In this document: positions 21,607 to 25,959 of the stretch, in pieces
Layout: every line of letters begins with the position of its first letter
Numbering within the stretch: the first letter of the stretch is position 1
Assembly: GCF_000724085.1 (NCBI RefSeq)
Contig: NZ_CCDL010000001.1
Span: 310,001-374,000, forward strand
Direction of reading: 5' to 3'
DNA: 64,000 nucleotides
Source: Oceanobacillus manasiensis
Lineage (GTDB): Bacteria; Bacillota; Bacilli; Bacillales; Amphibacillaceae
Notes under the pieces: generated by a model
What the model saw: only the letters and a program-made list of their open reading frames with translations
Database searches by the model: none
What the model was told of the DNA's origin: nothing
Position numbers and translations under genes: made by a program

Positions 21607-22353
21607 ATGTATGATGCAATCTTTTCTGTTGAGGGAGAGCCTTTTGTCATATTTAAGATATCCCACCTCGTTATGCTGTCCATCTATTTTGTTGGGTTTA
21701 TATTAATAATTTATTTTAACTCACTAAAAAGGCAACCCTTTTATAAACGTATCTACAATATAATAAGATGGTCCCTCTTTATTCTTTTAATCCTATCAGA
21801 AATTAGCTATCAAATTTGGTCAGCAAGCACTGGGATTTGGAATTTAAAGGAGCATATTCCCTTGCATTTATGTGGTGTTGCAAGCATTACAGCAGCCCTA
21901 ACGCTTTTACTACAAAATAAAATGCTTGCCACTTTAACTTTCTATATTGGCTTAGTACCAGCATTAATAGCGCTAATTACCCCAGATCTGCTATATAATT
22001 TTCCGCATTTTCGATTCTGGAAATTTTTTGTGCATCACATCGTTATTTCCTGGGCTAGCCTTTTTGTGATTGTAACTAGTTCTATCACTTTAAAATATAG
22101 ATCCCTGCTTATAAGCTATGGTCTACTACTAATTTATGCAGCTTTTATTGGGTTTATTGTTAATCCCATTTTAGATGTCAATTATCTCTATCTTAGGAAT
22201 ACCCCTATATCAAATACCCCTTTAAACTATTTCGGGGATGGCGTGCTATACTATGTAAATTTATGCCTTGTAGCTCTCACTGTTTTTTCTATTCAATGGG
22301 CAATCGTTCGTTATTTTCAAAATCGTAAGGACTCCGCCGAACCTTTGTTATGA
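21607..22353 (+). CDS. TIGR02206/YwaF-like integral membrane protein
   Basis: A 248-residue protein with about seven membrane helices. The family core IPLHLCGVASI with preceding Trp-rich loop (EISYQIWSASTGIWNLKEH) and the HFRFWKFFVHH segment fit the YwaF family, whose function is unknown. The ATG at 21607 is eight bases after AGGAGG; the ATG at 21601 is too close. The fabI terminator lies just upstream, so expression may depend on readthrough or an unseen promoter. Its stop overlaps the convergent small gene by 6 bp. Confidence 0.85.
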   Translation: MYDAIFSVEGEPFVIFKISHLVMLSIYFVGFILIIYFNSLKRQPFYKRIYNIIRWSLFILLILSEISYQIWSASTGIWNLKEHIPLHLCGVASITAALTLLLQNKMLATLTFYIGLVPALIALITPDLLYNFPHFRFWKFFVHHIVISWASLFVIVTSSITLKYRSLLISYGLLLIYAAFIGFIVNPILDVNYLYLRNTPISNTPLNYFGDGVLYYVNLCLVALTVFSIQWAIVRYFQNRKDSAEPLL

Positions 22354-22596
22354 GAGATCAGTTAAATCTAACCAGGATAACATTTCCGCTACAACCGTAT
22401 TTATCTTTTGATCGATGACATCTTCACCATATTTCTCTTTAGCCTGTGAAATACTTTTCATGACTTCTCCGTTAAACCCAATTACAGGATTATCTTTTTC
22501 AAGCTCATTAAATAGCTCAATCATAGCTTCGTTTCCCTCTTGTATACGGTCTATGGCATCACTATATTTTTGATAATCTTTCTCATTAGCTTTCAT
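22348..22596 (-). CDS. small acidic hypothetical protein
   Basis: 82 residues, mostly helical and acidic, starting MKANEKDYQKYSDAIDRI with GAGGTG six bases upstream; ATG/GTG starts slightly further upstream are possible. No membrane segment or known motif. Its 3' end overlaps the convergent ywaF-like gene. I do not recognise the family. Confidence 0.65.
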   Translation of the reverse strand: MKANEKDYQKYSDAIDRIQEGNEAMIELFNELEKDNPVIGFNGEVMKSISQAKEKYGEDVIDQKINTVVAEMLSWLDLTDLS

Positions 22597-22644
22597 TATC
22601 ATCACCTCTTTTTAGCATAACCAAAACTAGGCAATTTCATTTAG

Positions 22645-22674: not shown

Positions 22675-23454
22675 TTATTTTGTATAGTACCTTACATAAT
22701 TAGGATTCGCCGTAATATATAAGCCACTTTTTATTTGATACATATATCCTCCATCTACCGGGAACCTGTCCCGAATGACGGTAAATACTTCTCCTCTGTT
22801 TACAATGACGGCACGATCATTCCAGTTAGCAGTGTTATACGTCCAAAGAGAGTCTGTGACGATTTCAACAAATCCCTGTCCGGAACCTCCACCATCTTTC
22901 TTTACTAATCCAAGATAAGATGCAATCGAGTCAGCTAGTGCTTTTCCTGTATTATCCATTACCCCATTGTTCCGCATCTTTACAATATCTATGGTAGAAT
23001 CCATAAAACCGCCTTCAATAAGGATGGCTGGCATGTTGGATTCTCGTAGCATATGAAAGTTTGCCGACTTAACGCCACGATCTCGTAGTCCCATCGCAGT
23101 TACAATACTAGGATGAATACTTCGCGCCAGGTTATAACCTGAAGTAGAGCCAGGGTAATGATACGTCTCTGTCCCTGTCCATGTCCCCCATTGCCCTGTA
23201 TTGGCATTATGGTGGTACGATACTAAAATATCTGCATTAGCGTTGTTAGCAGTATTTGTTCGAGTCGTTAATGGTACATCTGTATTTCCACTAGGATCGT
23301 CTAACCTTACTACATTCGCATTCTCGTAACCTCCAAGGTAACGAATAGCAGCCGAAACTACTTTGTTGTTAAAAGTCCATTCTCTTTCACCAGCTGGGGA
23401 CCTTTTCCCCGGTGTGTTAATACCATGTCCTGCTCCAATTGCAATAATAGCCAT
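22675..23454 (-). CDS. N-acetylmuramoyl-L-alanine amidase (phage-type endolysin)
   Basis: Zinc amidase that cuts between MurNAc and the peptide stem. 259 residues from an ATG seven bases after GGAGGAG. The Amidase_3 domain fills about 1-175: His10 in GAGHG, Glu24, His81/82 in SYHHNAN and Glu147 in ILIEGGF fit the zinc and catalytic residues. A Gly-rich linker leads to an SH3-like wall-binding domain (about 195-259). There is no signal peptide, so it needs the holin to reach the wall, as phage endolysins do. It follows the holin and XhlA genes but is separated from them by a terminator and a dispersed repeat. Confidence 0.92.
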   Translation of the reverse strand: MAIIAIGAGHGINTPGKRSPAGEREWTFNNKVVSAAIRYLGGYENANVVRLDDPSGNTDVPLTTRTNTANNANADILVSYHHNANTGQWGTWTGTETYHYPGSTSGYNLARSIHPSIVTAMGLRDRGVKSANFHMLRESNMPAILIEGGFMDSTIDIVKMRNNGVMDNTGKALADSIASYLGLVKKDGGGSGQGFVEIVTDSLWTYNTANWNDRAVIVNRGEVFTVIRDRFPVDGGYMYQIKSGLYITANPNYVRYYTK

Positions 23455-23460
23455 AATAAA

Positions 23461-23640
23461 TCTCCTCCTTGATATTTTATAGAACAAAAGCGTAAGAGCC
23501 CGATTAGAGACGTAGCGAGTGGAACGAATCAACTGAGATAAAGGAATCACGGTAAGGTTACGAACCGATGATGACTTATCGTAGGGCGATTCGTGAAGTC
23601 GCCTAGTCTCTGGGCGATGGAGCCTAGCCGATTAGAAAAA
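23461..23640 (+). repeat. dispersed structured repeat, copy A, inserted in the lysis cassette
   Basis: Sequence starting near AACAAAAGCGTAAGAGC and ending near GGAGCCTAGCCG contains blocks also found, in part, at about 60745-60785 (same orientation) and 61795-61860 plus 61915-61930 (inverted): CGATGATGACTT and GAAGTCGCCTAGT with TCTGG. It contains no ORF. It separates the amidase from the holin gene. Confidence 0.6.
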
Positions 23641-23667
23641 CGGCTTGCCCGTGTGGACTAGCCGTTT
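23636..23667 (-). terminator. terminator after the holin gene
   Basis: AAACGGCT and AGCCGTTT arms with TTTTTCT tail on the minus strand, just after the holin stop codon. Confidence 0.75.
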
Positions 23668-23669
23668 GA

Positions 23670-23894
23670 CTACTTTGCCAAATTATATTTTTTTAGTACT
23701 AGTTTTTGCTGTTCTCCTGTTGCTGTAAGGTAATTATTTTTAAACCACGACCACACAGAGACAGAGAAACATAACAGGTATGCTATCGTTTGCTCATCCA
23801 ACACGGGTATTGGCTGTAAGTTATAGTGAGTGAGCAGAACATTCGCCCAAGAAATCGCAAGCGCAATGGTTCGTACGACTGTCCCTCTATCCAT
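23670..23894 (-). CDS. Phage holin, SPP1/phi LC3 type
   Basis: A 74-residue membrane protein starting MDRGTVVRTIALAISWANVL, five bases after GAGGTGG. One hydrophobic segment near 5-24 and a second near 38-57 (YLLCFSVSVWSWFKNN) with the WFKNNYLT motif common to this holin family. Holins open the membrane so that the amidase reaches the wall. It lies between xhlA and the amidase gene, the order seen in PBSX-like lysis cassettes. Confidence 0.85.
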   Translation of the reverse strand: MDRGTVVRTIALAISWANVLLTHYNLQPIPVLDEQTIAYLLCFSVSVWSWFKNNYLTATGEQQKLVLKKYNLAK

Positions 23895-23920
23895 TTCTAC
23901 CACCTCTTCTCTACTATTAT

Positions 23921-24211
23921 TTATAAACCAAACGTCAACAGAAAAAATAGAATCTGACATACAAATGCCCCAATCATGGAGATTAGGGCGATTCCCAGGT
24001 GCCTTGAGCTTGTCTGGATAGTCTTAATCTTATTGTTGTTCTCAACGGAACGATAGTTTGCCTCTTCGGCCACTTTTTTTGTTTTGGTGAGTGTTTCTTT
24101 AACATCTTGTAACTGATCTATTTTCCCATTTAACTCAGCCAGCGACACCTTCACTTCCATAAGCACTGTCAAAAATTCCTTCGTATTTTCCTGTTCCTTT
24201 TGATTTAGCAT
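23921..24211 (-). CDS. Hemolysin XhlA family protein
   Basis: A 96-residue protein with a coiled-coil body (about 5-68; VKVSLAELNGKIDQLQDV) and one C-terminal membrane helix (about 75-95), the layout of XhlA/BhlA. The ATG follows GGGAGG by six bases; a longer frame to 24322 is unsupported. In PBSX XhlA works with the holin XhlB and the amidase XlyA to lyse the cell. 26 bp before the holin gene, so co-transcribed. Confidence 0.85.
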   Translation of the reverse strand: MLNQKEQENTKEFLTVLMEVKVSLAELNGKIDQLQDVKETLTKTKKVAEEANYRSVENNNKIKTIQTSSRHLGIALISMIGAFVCQILFFLLTFGL

Positions 24212-24322
24212 TCCCAACCTCCCTTCTTTGTATGGTGATGTTCCTAACAAGTTGCCTTCAACAGGAACACTTGTTCTATTCCTGTTAAATCTATTGTACA
24301 ACCCCTTTGTTATCTTTGTCAT

Positions 24323-24739
24323 CTACTGCGCAGAGTGTGTAAAATGTGCAATTTGACGAACAATATCATCCTTTATGTGATATACCTGTCTTCTCGATAA
24401 GCCCATATGCTCGCTTACCGCACTAATTGTCATTCCATCTAATATACATTCTAGGATAGCCTTTTCCCTTGGATCTTCAATGGCTATCATTCTCTCCTGG
24501 ATAAATAAAACCTTTCTCTCCAATTTTATAATCCATCCACTTTTCTTCTCTCTTCGCAATACTTCTTGACCAACAGGGTCACTTACTTTCCCTTTTGTTT
24601 TAGGAAGTGTCGATTCAATACCAGATGAAGCAACCAATTTGGATCCTATCTCTTCTTCTAACACGACCCTCTGCCTTTTAATTTCTTTTAACATCCAACG
24701 ATAGTCTTTTAAAGTACGCTCAATCTGTTTTTCGTTCAT
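24323..24739 (-). CDS. ArpU/RinA/Xpf-like phage transcriptional regulator
   Basis: 138 residues starting MNEKQIERTLKDYRWML, nine bases after GGGGG. The first two thirds are charged helices; the last 50 residues form a sigma-region-4-like helix-turn-helix (EDPREKAILECILDGMTISAVSEHMGLSRRQVYHIKDDI). Proteins of this type switch on late or lysis genes in Gram-positive phages. It precedes xhlA by 111 bp in the same direction and diverges from the Xre repressor, so it is the likely activator of the lysis genes. Exact family (ArpU or Xpf) is uncertain. Confidence 0.8.
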   Translation of the reverse strand: MNEKQIERTLKDYRWMLKEIKRQRVVLEEEIGSKLVASSGIESTLPKTKGKVSDPVGQEVLRREKKSGWIIKLERKVLFIQERMIAIEDPREKAILECILDGMTISAVSEHMGLSRRQVYHIKDDIVRQIAHFTHSAQ

Positions 24740-24881
24740 CAAAACCTGCCCCCTTATTGAATAGCAATTGTGCATACTTGCTTCTCGTAATTGGTGATAG
24801 AGCACCACTTCGTTTATCTTTTCGTATGTCGCTGACAACCCATGTAACAACACAGTTTTTTTGATTAGTAGAATAACCCAT
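24720..24881 (-). CDS. possible small phage-type ORF (53 aa)
   Basis: An ATG at 24881, six bases after GGGGG, opens a 53-codon frame that overlaps the start of the ArpU-like gene by 20 bp. The peptide is basic, starts MGYSTNQKNCVVTWVV and has no family I know. The good ribosome site, the position right after the divergent promoter and the overlap favour a real first gene of the transcript, but composition alone does not prove it. Confidence 0.45.
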   Translation of the reverse strand: MGYSTNQKNCVVTWVVSDIRKDKRSGALSPITRSKYAQLLFNKGAGFDERKTD

Positions 24882-24923
24882 GCTGATCCCCCTTTATCAT
24901 AGAAAAATATGGTATACTATATA

Positions 24924-24935
24924 GAACGTTTGTTC
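24924..24935. promoter_or_regulatory. LexA (SOS) box core
   Basis: GAACGTTTGTTC matches the palindromic core GAAC-N4-GTTC of Bacillus LexA/DinR boxes exactly. It starts three bases beyond the -10 of the lysis-side promoter, where bound LexA would block initiation. Confidence 0.7.
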
Positions 24936-24937
24936 CT

Positions 24938-24966
24938 ATATTATATTTCTAAAACAGAAATGTAAA
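24938..24966 (-). promoter_or_regulatory. promoter of the regulator/lysis transcript with palindrome in the spacer
   Basis: TTTACA (24961-24966), 17 bp and TAATAT (24938-24943) on the minus strand; a TATAAT at 24940-24945 gives 15 bp. The spacer holds the palindrome ATTTCT-AAAAC-AGAAAT (24945-24961), a likely Xre operator; a half site recurs at 25006-25012 in the xre promoter. Confidence 0.6.
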
Positions 24967-24993
24967 GAGGACTTTAGGGCTAAAATTAGTTAT

Positions 24994-25023
24994 TTGTTTC
25001 GCAATTAGAAATAATGTTATGAT
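24994..25023 (+). promoter_or_regulatory. promoter of xre
   Basis: TTGTTT (24994-24999), 18 bp and TATGAT (25018-25023), 30 bp before the xre start. Divergent from the lysis-side promoter 28 bp away. Confidence 0.55.
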
Positions 25024-25053
25024 ATAGAGAGGTATAAGAAAGGGTTGTTCACG

Positions 25054-25395
25054 GTGAAATTAGGGGAAAGAATTATCCAATTGCGAGAGAGACAAAACTG
25101 GAGCCAACGAGAACTCGCCAAACGTATTCAATTAAATGTGAGCGTAATGAATCGAATTGAATTAGGGGAAAGGCCAGTTAAAGACCATGAACTAGGCCGC
25201 ATCGCCACAGTACTAGAAGTAACGACAGACTACCTTCTTGGGAGGTCCGAAAATCCAGCTAGGAGTGAAAAGGAAGATTTCGAAGCATTTCGCAATGATC
25301 CCGCACTTGAAAGATGGTATAAGACGCTACCACAAAATAGTGAAGAGGATCTACGCAGGTTAAAAAGGATTTGGGAAGCATTTAAAGAAGAATAG
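25054..25395 (+). CDS. XRE family phage repressor
   Basis: 113 residues from a GTG nine bases after AAAGGG. An N-terminal Cro/CI helix-turn-helix (about 3-60: WSQRELAKRIQLNVSVMNRIELG, LEVTTDYLLG) is followed by an acidic tail without the self-cleaving protease domain of CI or LexA. Inactivation would therefore need another factor, and an ImmA-type protease is encoded next. This resembles the Xre-XkdA and ImmR-ImmA pairs of PBSX and ICEBs1. Confidence 0.88.
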   Translation: MKLGERIIQLRERQNWSQRELAKRIQLNVSVMNRIELGERPVKDHELGRIATVLEVTTDYLLGRSENPARSEKEDFEAFRNDPALERWYKTLPQNSEEDLRRLKRIWEAFKEE

Positions 25396-25503
25396 TAGGA
25401 CTTAGCAGAGATCCTTAGCTGATGATTAGGTGTACAAATAGCGGTGCACCTCCTTTTATAAACCAAACACGAACATACATTCTATTTATGGGGAGGTATT
25501 CCT

Positions 25504-25959
25504 TTGTTCTACACTAGAACGGAAACATTTATAAAAGACCTCTTGCTGTCTGTTAACATAAAAAAGCCTGCAGACTTAGGGATTTACACTATGGCGGAAG
25601 CACTCCAAATTTCGGTACATCCATGGGAGTTTGGAAGCGAAGCAGTAAGCAGGGATGGGAAATACATTATTTTCTTAAATGAACAAAAAAATGAAAGAGT
25701 TCAGTGGCAAGAATTCACGCATGAAGTGGCTCATATAATGTGGCATGTAGGAAGGCAGGAGTTATTACCACCAAGCTTTGTTGAATTACAGGAATGGCAG
25801 GCAAACTATTTCAGCTGCCACCTTTGTATCCCAACGTTTATGCTCGAGAAGATTACGATAAAACTGACCCCCCATAACCTAATGGAACTGTTTAACGTGG
25901 AGTATAGTTTTGCCTATAAACGAATGGAGATGTTGGAGAATAAGAGAGCGAATATTTAG
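25504..25959 (+). CDS. ImmA/IrrE family metallo-endopeptidase
   Basis: 151 residues from a TTG seven bases after GGGGAGG. The zinc motif HEVAH is at 73-77 within EFTHEVAHIMWH, and Glu97 in QEWQAN is the likely third ligand. Members cut Xre-type repressors to derepress phage or ICE genes. It follows xre by 108 bp. The pair forms a self-contained induction switch. Confidence 0.9.
   Translation: MFYTRTETFIKDLLLSVNIKKPADLGIYTMAEALQISVHPWEFGSEAVSRDGKYIIFLNEQKNERVQWQEFTHEVAHIMWHVGRQELLPPSFVELQEWQANYFSCHLCIPTFMLEKITIKLTPHNLMELFNVEYSFAYKRMEMLENKRANI

Follow-up and report, generated by a model that had tools for sequence, protein, structure and literature searches.

A probable SOS-inducible lysis module of Oceanobacillus manasiensis, retained from a tailocin island whose tail genes are absent

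Tailocins, repressor-protease switches, lysis-driven vesicle formation and shortened monocin loci are already known, and we compare them here with a six-gene lysis module of Oceanobacillus manasiensis, found in a 64,000-nucleotide stretch of contig NZ_CCDL010000001.1 (assembly GCF_000724085.1, positions 310,001 to 374,000), hereafter the window, whose own numbering we use. In the parts of the cited reports that we draw on here and below, the Listeria monocin, an F-type tailocin, is described as consisting of regulatory, bacteriocin and lysis modules: a divergent CI-like repressor and a DUF955/M78 protease accompany a tail module and a lysis module, the locus does not excise and is inherited vertically at a fixed site, and MpaR cleaves the monocin repressor (PMC6872733). 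Some strains have this locus cut to three to six genes at its original site, always including mpaR, and strain 4a L99 has 5 of the 16 genes (PMC6872733, PMC3464598); the conserved holin of the monocin locus is expressed in all strains studied (PMC3464598). In Pseudomonas aeruginosa, the endolysin of the R/F-pyocin hol/lys genes is required for explosive lysis and for the release of extracellular DNA (eDNA) and vesicles, no requirement was seen for any pyocin structural gene examined, and every complete genome keeps lys although the pyocin cluster is missing from some strains, showing that a tailocin lysis function works apart from the structural genes examined (PMC4834629). In Bacillus subtilis, the damage-inducible xhlA, xhlB and xlyA genes of PBSX, which are of the same three kinds as those of our module (XhlA, holin, amidase), are all required for vesicle production (PMC5589764), and a tailocin endolysin of Stenotrophomonas drives damage-linked vesicle formation (PMC13393414). 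The DLP12 lysis operon of Escherichia coli K-12 is reported to be a domesticated lysis operon of a defective prophage that affects vesicle output (PMC7918800).

We propose that the module of O. manasiensis is probably an SOS-inducible lysis module retained from an F-type tailocin island that lost its tail genes. It lies complete between the TMEM164 and Mistic genes and the tRNA-Thr/tRNA-Asn end of an rRNA operon. The minus strand carries, in order of transcription, a small open reading frame (ORF; 24881-24720) and the genes for an ArpU-like regulator, an XhlA-like protein, an SPP1-type holin and an Amidase_3 endolysin; an Xre repressor gene and an M78 (ImmA-like) protease gene are divergent from these:

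22675 to 23454, minus strand: Amidase_3 endolysin of 259 amino acids with its own C-terminal domain (Pfam Amidase_3, E=1.7e-33; phrog_435 endolysin, E=4e-52)
23670 to 23894, minus strand: SPP1-type holin of 74 amino acids (Pfam Holin_SPP1, E=1.7e-17; NCBIfam TIGR01592, above cut-off)
23921 to 24211, minus strand: XhlA-like membrane protein of 96 amino acids with one C-terminal membrane segment (phrog_689 "holin", E=1.4e-8)
24323 to 24739, minus strand: ArpU/RinA-like late regulator of 138 amino acids (phrog_1058, E=2.5e-30; phrog_36, E=4e-10)
24720 to 24881, minus strand: small ORF of 53 amino acids overlapping the start of arpU (phrog_38029, E=1.6e-7), kept in relatives
25045 to 25395, plus strand: Xre/CI-like repressor of 116 amino acids (Pfam HTH_3, E=4.9e-11; phrog_8, E=3.8e-19)
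25504 to 25959, plus strand: ImmA-like M78 metalloprotease of 151 amino acids with a HEVAH motif (Pfam PF06114, E=5e-15)

All six named ORFs are present and open, as the initial annotation, made from the sequence alone, had claimed. Pfam, NCBIfam and PHROG profiles assigned five of them strongly and XhlA weakly, its Pfam score of 18.1 bits lying below the cut-off of 34.7. That inventory had overlooked the small ORF, two LexA-type boxes and a repeat between the holin and amidase genes. The amidase starts at the ATG at 23454 and not at 23550, and the most likely starts of the holin and XhlA are at 23894 and, after a strong ribosome site, at 24211. On the evidence of the genes, holin and muralytic enzyme, both with intact reading frames, form a holin-endolysin cassette, and the Xre repressor adjoins an M78 protease with an intact HEXXH, as in ImmR/ImmA-type switches, in which the protease would cleave the repressor. 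The amidase has the expected His/Glu motifs, and we assume that these and the HEVAH motif of the protease have their usual functional roles. The small ORF was recognisable in five of the six relatives scanned (the scan missed G001, the genome of a sister species) and was also seen in the alignment of the promoter region. From the TMEM164 and Mistic genes to the tRNA-Thr/tRNA-Asn and rRNA genes, ORF reading and profile scans recognised no phage structural, packaging or integration gene (none for capsid, portal, terminase or integrase), in agreement with the initial annotation, and siphovirus-type tail genes (tube, chaperones, tape measure, Dit and Tal) are absent from the window locus.

We then searched 159 genomes of the family, of which the ArpU query matched 17 at E<=1e-20 and the Xre query 29. 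The same six genes, sought at the same site, were found in the sister species (G001, of the same genus, g1, as the window's genome, G000) and in eight genomes of a related genus, g18; these eight are those among the matches listed, and a g18 genome without the module is possible. The Xre/ImmA switch, ArpU and lysis genes follow a single order in all ten loci, and the lysis end of each faces fabI and a tRNA-Glu-Val-Thr-Tyr-Gln-Lys cluster, which makes this a fixed site in both g1 and all eight g18 genomes. The module proteins of G174 are identical to those of Virgibacillus salexigens. Six of the eight g18 genomes (G018, G169, G170, G172, G173 and G175) carry siphovirus-type tail genes between arpU and xhlA. 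Eight ORFs of locus L030 and two of L025 were scanned with PHROG, and the other loci were matched to these by BLAST or by eye:

Tail island of g18: tail tube (phrog_238, E=1e-50)
Tail island of g18: two chaperone ORFs (phrog_183, E=1e-35; phrog_441, E=2e-29)
Tail island of g18: short tape measure of 523-541 amino acids (phrog_58, E=2e-66)
Tail island of g18: Dit (phrog_202, E=1e-77)
L030 and L025: Tal (L030, phrog_19445, E=6e-117, and Pfam Prophage_tail; L025, phrog_1775, E=7e-99)

Several Tal matches are labelled "minor head protein" or "head and packaging" in PHROG, and a coiled-coil-like ORF of 160 amino acids in the tail island matches head families weakly (E of 4e-4 and above); we attribute both to PHROG labelling or to coiled-coil similarity. 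Apart from these, the tail-bearing g18 islands showed no capsid, portal, terminase or integrase gene between switch and lysis genes, and no tail-terminator gene was identified in them. By their gene content, these six islands have the F-type tailocin layout of the Listeria monocin. The six genes of the window are real, intact and standalone, and are the two ends of such a siphovirus-like island; in contrast to the monocin, this copy has no tail genes and adds an ArpU-like gene with a conserved LexA-type box before it. The initial annotation had described the locus as derived from a PBSX-like prophage. PBSX is a defective prophage with a capsid and a contractile tail, whereas the same-site relatives hold siphovirus-type tails only, with no capsid or terminase gene seen, and we abandoned this assignment.

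The tail is missing at the site in G000, G001, G171 and G174. No tail tube was detected anywhere in the genomes of G000 and G001 at E<=1e-10. Tube homologues occur elsewhere in G171 (one, at 70%, with an internal stop) and in G174 (two, at 39 and 42%; L098 and L102), and the G171 homologue (L117) lies within a full prophage with portal- and terminase-like ORFs, as judged by eye. In its arpU-xhlA interval (L033:10281-12809), G171 retains a phrog_1401 protein with a weak DUF1617 match and a tail spike (phrog_22811). In L104 and L105, two loci from other genera, the tail operon has homologues of both (26-32% identity) at its downstream end, and for this reason G171 looks like an internal deletion. 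The G171 spike has a pectate-lyase fold; its presence without a tail is unexpected, and it may serve a purpose of its own. G174 has an arpU-xhlA gap of only 227 bp and retains the motif TGTCCGAAATGACGTTAAACTAA, which is found 3' of arpU in seven g18 loci (six by regular expression with variants, G175 by eye; near 11055 in L030, 5600 in L025 and 13256 in L039) and is missing in G171, G000 and G001. Perhaps ArpU-family regulators bind this motif, or it belongs to an antitermination site.

G171 groups with the tail-bearing G175 in the FabI (88/73) and ArpU (91/88) trees, and the pair then joins G169/G170 (93/89 and 94/92), with G174 placed elsewhere; none of these forks is at the starred support level, and single-gene trees resolve the order within g18 poorly. 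Because G171 groups with a tail-bearing genome and G174 lies elsewhere, two tail losses inside g18 are likely. The state of g1 would be a third loss if the common ancestor had the tail, and since the scars differ between the tail-less loci, the tail was probably lost about three times overall. A gain of the tail in g18 after its split from g1 takes an equal number of steps, but since ArpU, XhlA and holin derive from phages or tailocins in their own right, we regard it as the less likely course. In the comparison of G000 with G001, the end of arpU and the second LexA-type box align and the ribosome site of xhlA is identical, and the sequence between them is unlike, which fits one shared loss without proving it.

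We then compared the selection acting on the module with that on its neighbours. Between G000 and G001, the ratio of nonsynonymous to synonymous divergence (dN/dS) of the module is 0.073 (bootstrap 0.056-0.095; 831 codons pooled), versus 0.070 (0.061-0.080; 3797 codons) for 12 flanking genes, a control from which Mistic was left out because its dS is undefined. Taken singly, the six genes give 0.04-0.16 (NG86) or 0.04-0.32 (YN00), with dS of 0.35-1.15 (NG86). Ratios within g18 are noisier: 0.09 to 0.25 for the module genes of G171/G175, holin excepted, and 0 to 0.34 for G169/G170 and G172/G173, two pairs with tails; in G018/G174, most of the module genes are saturated. If the tail loss predates the split of G000 and G001, selection has held the module without a tail since then. 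The initial annotation's view of a lysis module that stands alone, carries its own switch and may be maintained by selection is borne out by the same-site genes and by the purifying selection that it had suggested looking for.

A neutral, decaying tailocin remnant whose genes are not yet lost would account for several observations: the tail was lost more than once, a repeat element lies inside the lysis operon of the window, and the immA gene of the tail-less V. salexigens carries an internal stop codon, so that not every tail-less copy is intact. Against such a remnant, all six ORFs are open in both g1 species at a synonymous divergence (dS) of about 0.86, and the dN/dS of 0.073 equals that of the neighbouring genes; we find this explanation very improbable. 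For g1, we rejected a recent deletion or a decaying remnant on these ratios, and the recent random deletion with frameshifts that the initial annotation had named as contrary evidence was not found there.

The promoter region contains the sites that would place the module under SOS control:

24265 to 24276, no strand assigned: LexA-type box 2, GAACN4GTTC, between arpU and xhlA, exact in both g1 genomes
24293 to 24322, minus strand: promoter-like ATGACA-N18-TACAAT at the arpU stop codon, before xhlA (a consensus match only, with similar spacing in relatives by eye)
24924 to 24935, no strand assigned: LexA-type box 1, immediately after the -10 element of the arpU promoter, a position that it occupies in all ten loci
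24938 to 24966, minus strand: arpU promoter TTTACA-N17-TAATAT, at the same position in relatives, with TTGACA in the eight g18 loci
24941 to 24965, no strand assigned: candidate Xre operator, palindrome TTATATTTCT-N5-AGAAATGTAA across the arpU promoter

A promoter of the form TTGACA (TTTACA in g1)-N17-TAATAT or TATGAT is found upstream of the small ORF and arpU in all ten loci, and in each of them a GAACRNRYGTTC box, a putative LexA operator, stands right after its -10. GAACRNRYGTTC agrees with the B. subtilis DinR/LexA consensus. In the window's genome, such boxes also occur upstream of lexA, and one more stands before a gene that looks, by eye, like a Y-family polymerase gene. Box 2 has a one-mismatch form (GATC) in G169, G170 and G175 and no counterpart in the other five loci; the one-mismatch forms make box 2 likely older than the tail-less genus, and the idea that it is a novelty of that genus was dropped. 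The G175 form is identical to a site that we located by eye in front of lexA in the genome of the window. Promoter-like matches are not commoner in the region than expected by chance (6 versus 8.8 in shuffles).

We propose that LexA and the Xre repressor together would block the arpU promoter. Upon DNA damage, RecA-stimulated self-cleavage would remove LexA, and ImmA would then be free to inactivate Xre, upon which the small ORF, arpU, xhlA, holin and amidase would be read as one short operon. Holin and XhlA would breach the membrane and the amidase would open the wall, so that a damaged subpopulation would lyse and free vesicles, DNA and cytoplasm in place of tail particles. By analogy with the described systems, the module probably releases vesicles, DNA or cytoplasm; tail particles are impossible for the window copy, which has no tail genes, unless such genes lie elsewhere.

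The same architecture accommodates other roles. The switch itself could be what is kept, with Xre/ImmA coordinating other phage elements like MpaR of the Listeria monocin: the repressor-metalloprotease architecture matches, and the short monocin loci of some Listeria strains, with their three to six genes, always contain mpaR (PMC6872733). However, the lysis genes of the window are also kept, under similar constraint, and the genome has neither a credible terminase nor a second M78 protease: for the large terminase, phrog_2 gave just a weak match (E=3e-4) to an ABC-type ATPase, one profile being able to miss divergent terminases, and the M78 profile matched the ImmA of the module alone. Service to resident prophages is therefore unlikely and finds no support in these profile results, and we regard the coordinator role as very improbable. 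The module could also be a defence device, in which infection would disturb LexA/RecA or bring an antirepressor and lysis would occur before phage progeny mature (abortive infection). The architecture would suit such a device, being that of a suicide module locked by two repressors and making no particle; we consider this role unlikely. Finally, lysis could release a host product (toxin, bacteriocin or enzyme) whose gene lies elsewhere and shares the SOS control of the module. The cassette would be useful without tails if other cargo existed, and LexA-type boxes do occur at other loci in the genome; yet no cargo gene was recognised by eye near the module or in the ORFs by the other boxes, which were not run against a family library, and we see this role as unlikely.

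Several points weigh against a retained SOS-inducible lysis module. Purifying selection is evidence of function and not of lysis as such, and our sample of g1 consists of two genomes. The stop codon in the V. salexigens immA belongs here as well, as does the dN/dS of 0.68 of the holin in G171/G175, which comes from few changes. In G171 and G174, which have tube homologues elsewhere, the lysis genes might serve another element. GAACN4GTTC is found twice in the window versus 0.84 expected, with at least two occurrences in 22 of 100 shuffles, and is not enriched; a stricter LexA-type pattern gave 16 matches genome-wide versus 9 for the reversed control, a modest excess. As the count gives no enrichment, the case for the LexA-type boxes rests on position and conservation. 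The last point concerns the repeat between the holin and amidase genes:

23471 to 23623, no strand assigned: multi-copy, strongly folding repeat resembling a miniature inverted-repeat transposable element (MITE), between holin and amidase (own-genome matches, fold score)

This repeat has 21 matching places in its own genome including itself, seven of them of at least 120 bases, and may be a MITE. The region around it (23458-23672) has a fold z of -4.0, and its stable stem-loop, which separates holin from amidase, might lower amidase expression. The holin-amidase gap is just 65 bp in the sister species (L024), too short for the repeat.

Beyond the retained SOS-inducible lysis module itself, we advance more tentatively, as a possibility only somewhat short of an even chance, that SOS-controlled lysis without particles is a selected trait that has arisen about three times by tail loss from one old tailocin island, selection having kept the double-locked switch and the lysis genes. 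If true, this would be an altruistic-lysis system caught while being made from a tailocin.

Comparable clusters occur in other genera of the family elsewhere on the chromosome; L104, L105, L107 and L108 include lysis genes. At L106 the lysis genes were not matched, and L109, which has a replication-type ORF (by eye) and whose sequence ends before the lysis end, may be a reduced prophage. These six loci are siphovirus-type tail clusters without capsid genes and apparently represent several independent tailocin islands. One side of the site without the module is seen in g20 (L164), where fabI is followed by TMEM164 and, 82 bp further on, by tRNA-Thr and tRNA-Asn, with nothing between. The ArpU loci L026-L029, L036-L038 and L040-L042 stand among ordinary prophage genes, by eye, and were excluded from the tail-loss count; ArpU is split at L043. 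The Xre loci L112, L114, L115, L118, L122 and L123 resemble integrated mobile elements or prophages, and Xre stands alone at L119, L120 and L121, with a distant ImmA at L119; the six-gene module was seen in none of L112, L114, L115 and L118-L123.

Smaller traces were found as well. In another genus (G145, L110:10228-11660), just an Xre gene (63% to that of the window) and a divergent amidase gene (71% to that of V. salexigens) are present, a still smaller remnant or module. A lone Xre (G129, genus g14, L121:9980-10345; 68% to part of that of the window) lies roughly 4 kb away from fabI and from the tRNA cluster seen in the ten loci, and is perhaps the last trace of the island there. In G171, a different element has left a remnant at this pair of tRNA genes: an ImmA fragment (50%) and ORFs judged by eye to be integrase-like directly follow tRNA-Thr, about 18 kb from the module (L049:1338-3175). 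Between the g1 amidases (window 22675-23454) and that of V. salexigens (L002:7497-8264), the C-terminal domain is closely alike (78% across the last 67 residues for G001) and the catalytic half less so, a pattern that suggests domain swapping within the cassette. Beside the module, the Mistic gene (22348-22605, minus strand; Pfam E=1e-33) lies at the 3' end of TMEM164. Mistic is usually partnered with a potassium-channel gene in B. subtilis, and we noticed none beside this copy.

Among the described systems, pyocin lys kept without its cluster is a close precedent. Organism and regulators differ, the pyocin regulators being PrtN/PrtR, and in the window repressor, protease, activator and lysis genes persist together. 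PBSX shares its kinds of lysis gene with the module, whose relatives in contrast have siphovirus-type tail genes and no capsid gene that we saw. Deletion of the DLP12 operon raises vesiculation and stress lowers its expression, and the part of the report that we draw on does not describe an attached repressor-protease switch (PMC7918800). The short Listeria loci are possibly a closer parallel, since their locus is described as having a conserved, expressed holin (PMC3464598). In the literature searched, mostly at the level of titles, we found no tailocin island that has lost its tail and keeps both switch and lysis genes under purifying selection like that on core genes, and no repeated tail loss at one site; with a switch, lysis genes and no particle, the module would be a natural end point of this series.

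Deletion mutants are the usual basis for arguing whether tailocin and prophage lysis genes are kept for the particle or for lysis as such (through vesicles, eDNA or public goods). In the present case, the tail was removed naturally in separate lineages at one site, with long-term purifying selection on the remainder in at least one of them, and these lineages make the question testable by comparative genomics and one simple knockout in a relative that is halotolerant and non-pathogenic. The retention of an intact switch and lysis genes without a tail suggests that controlled cell bursting can be useful by itself.

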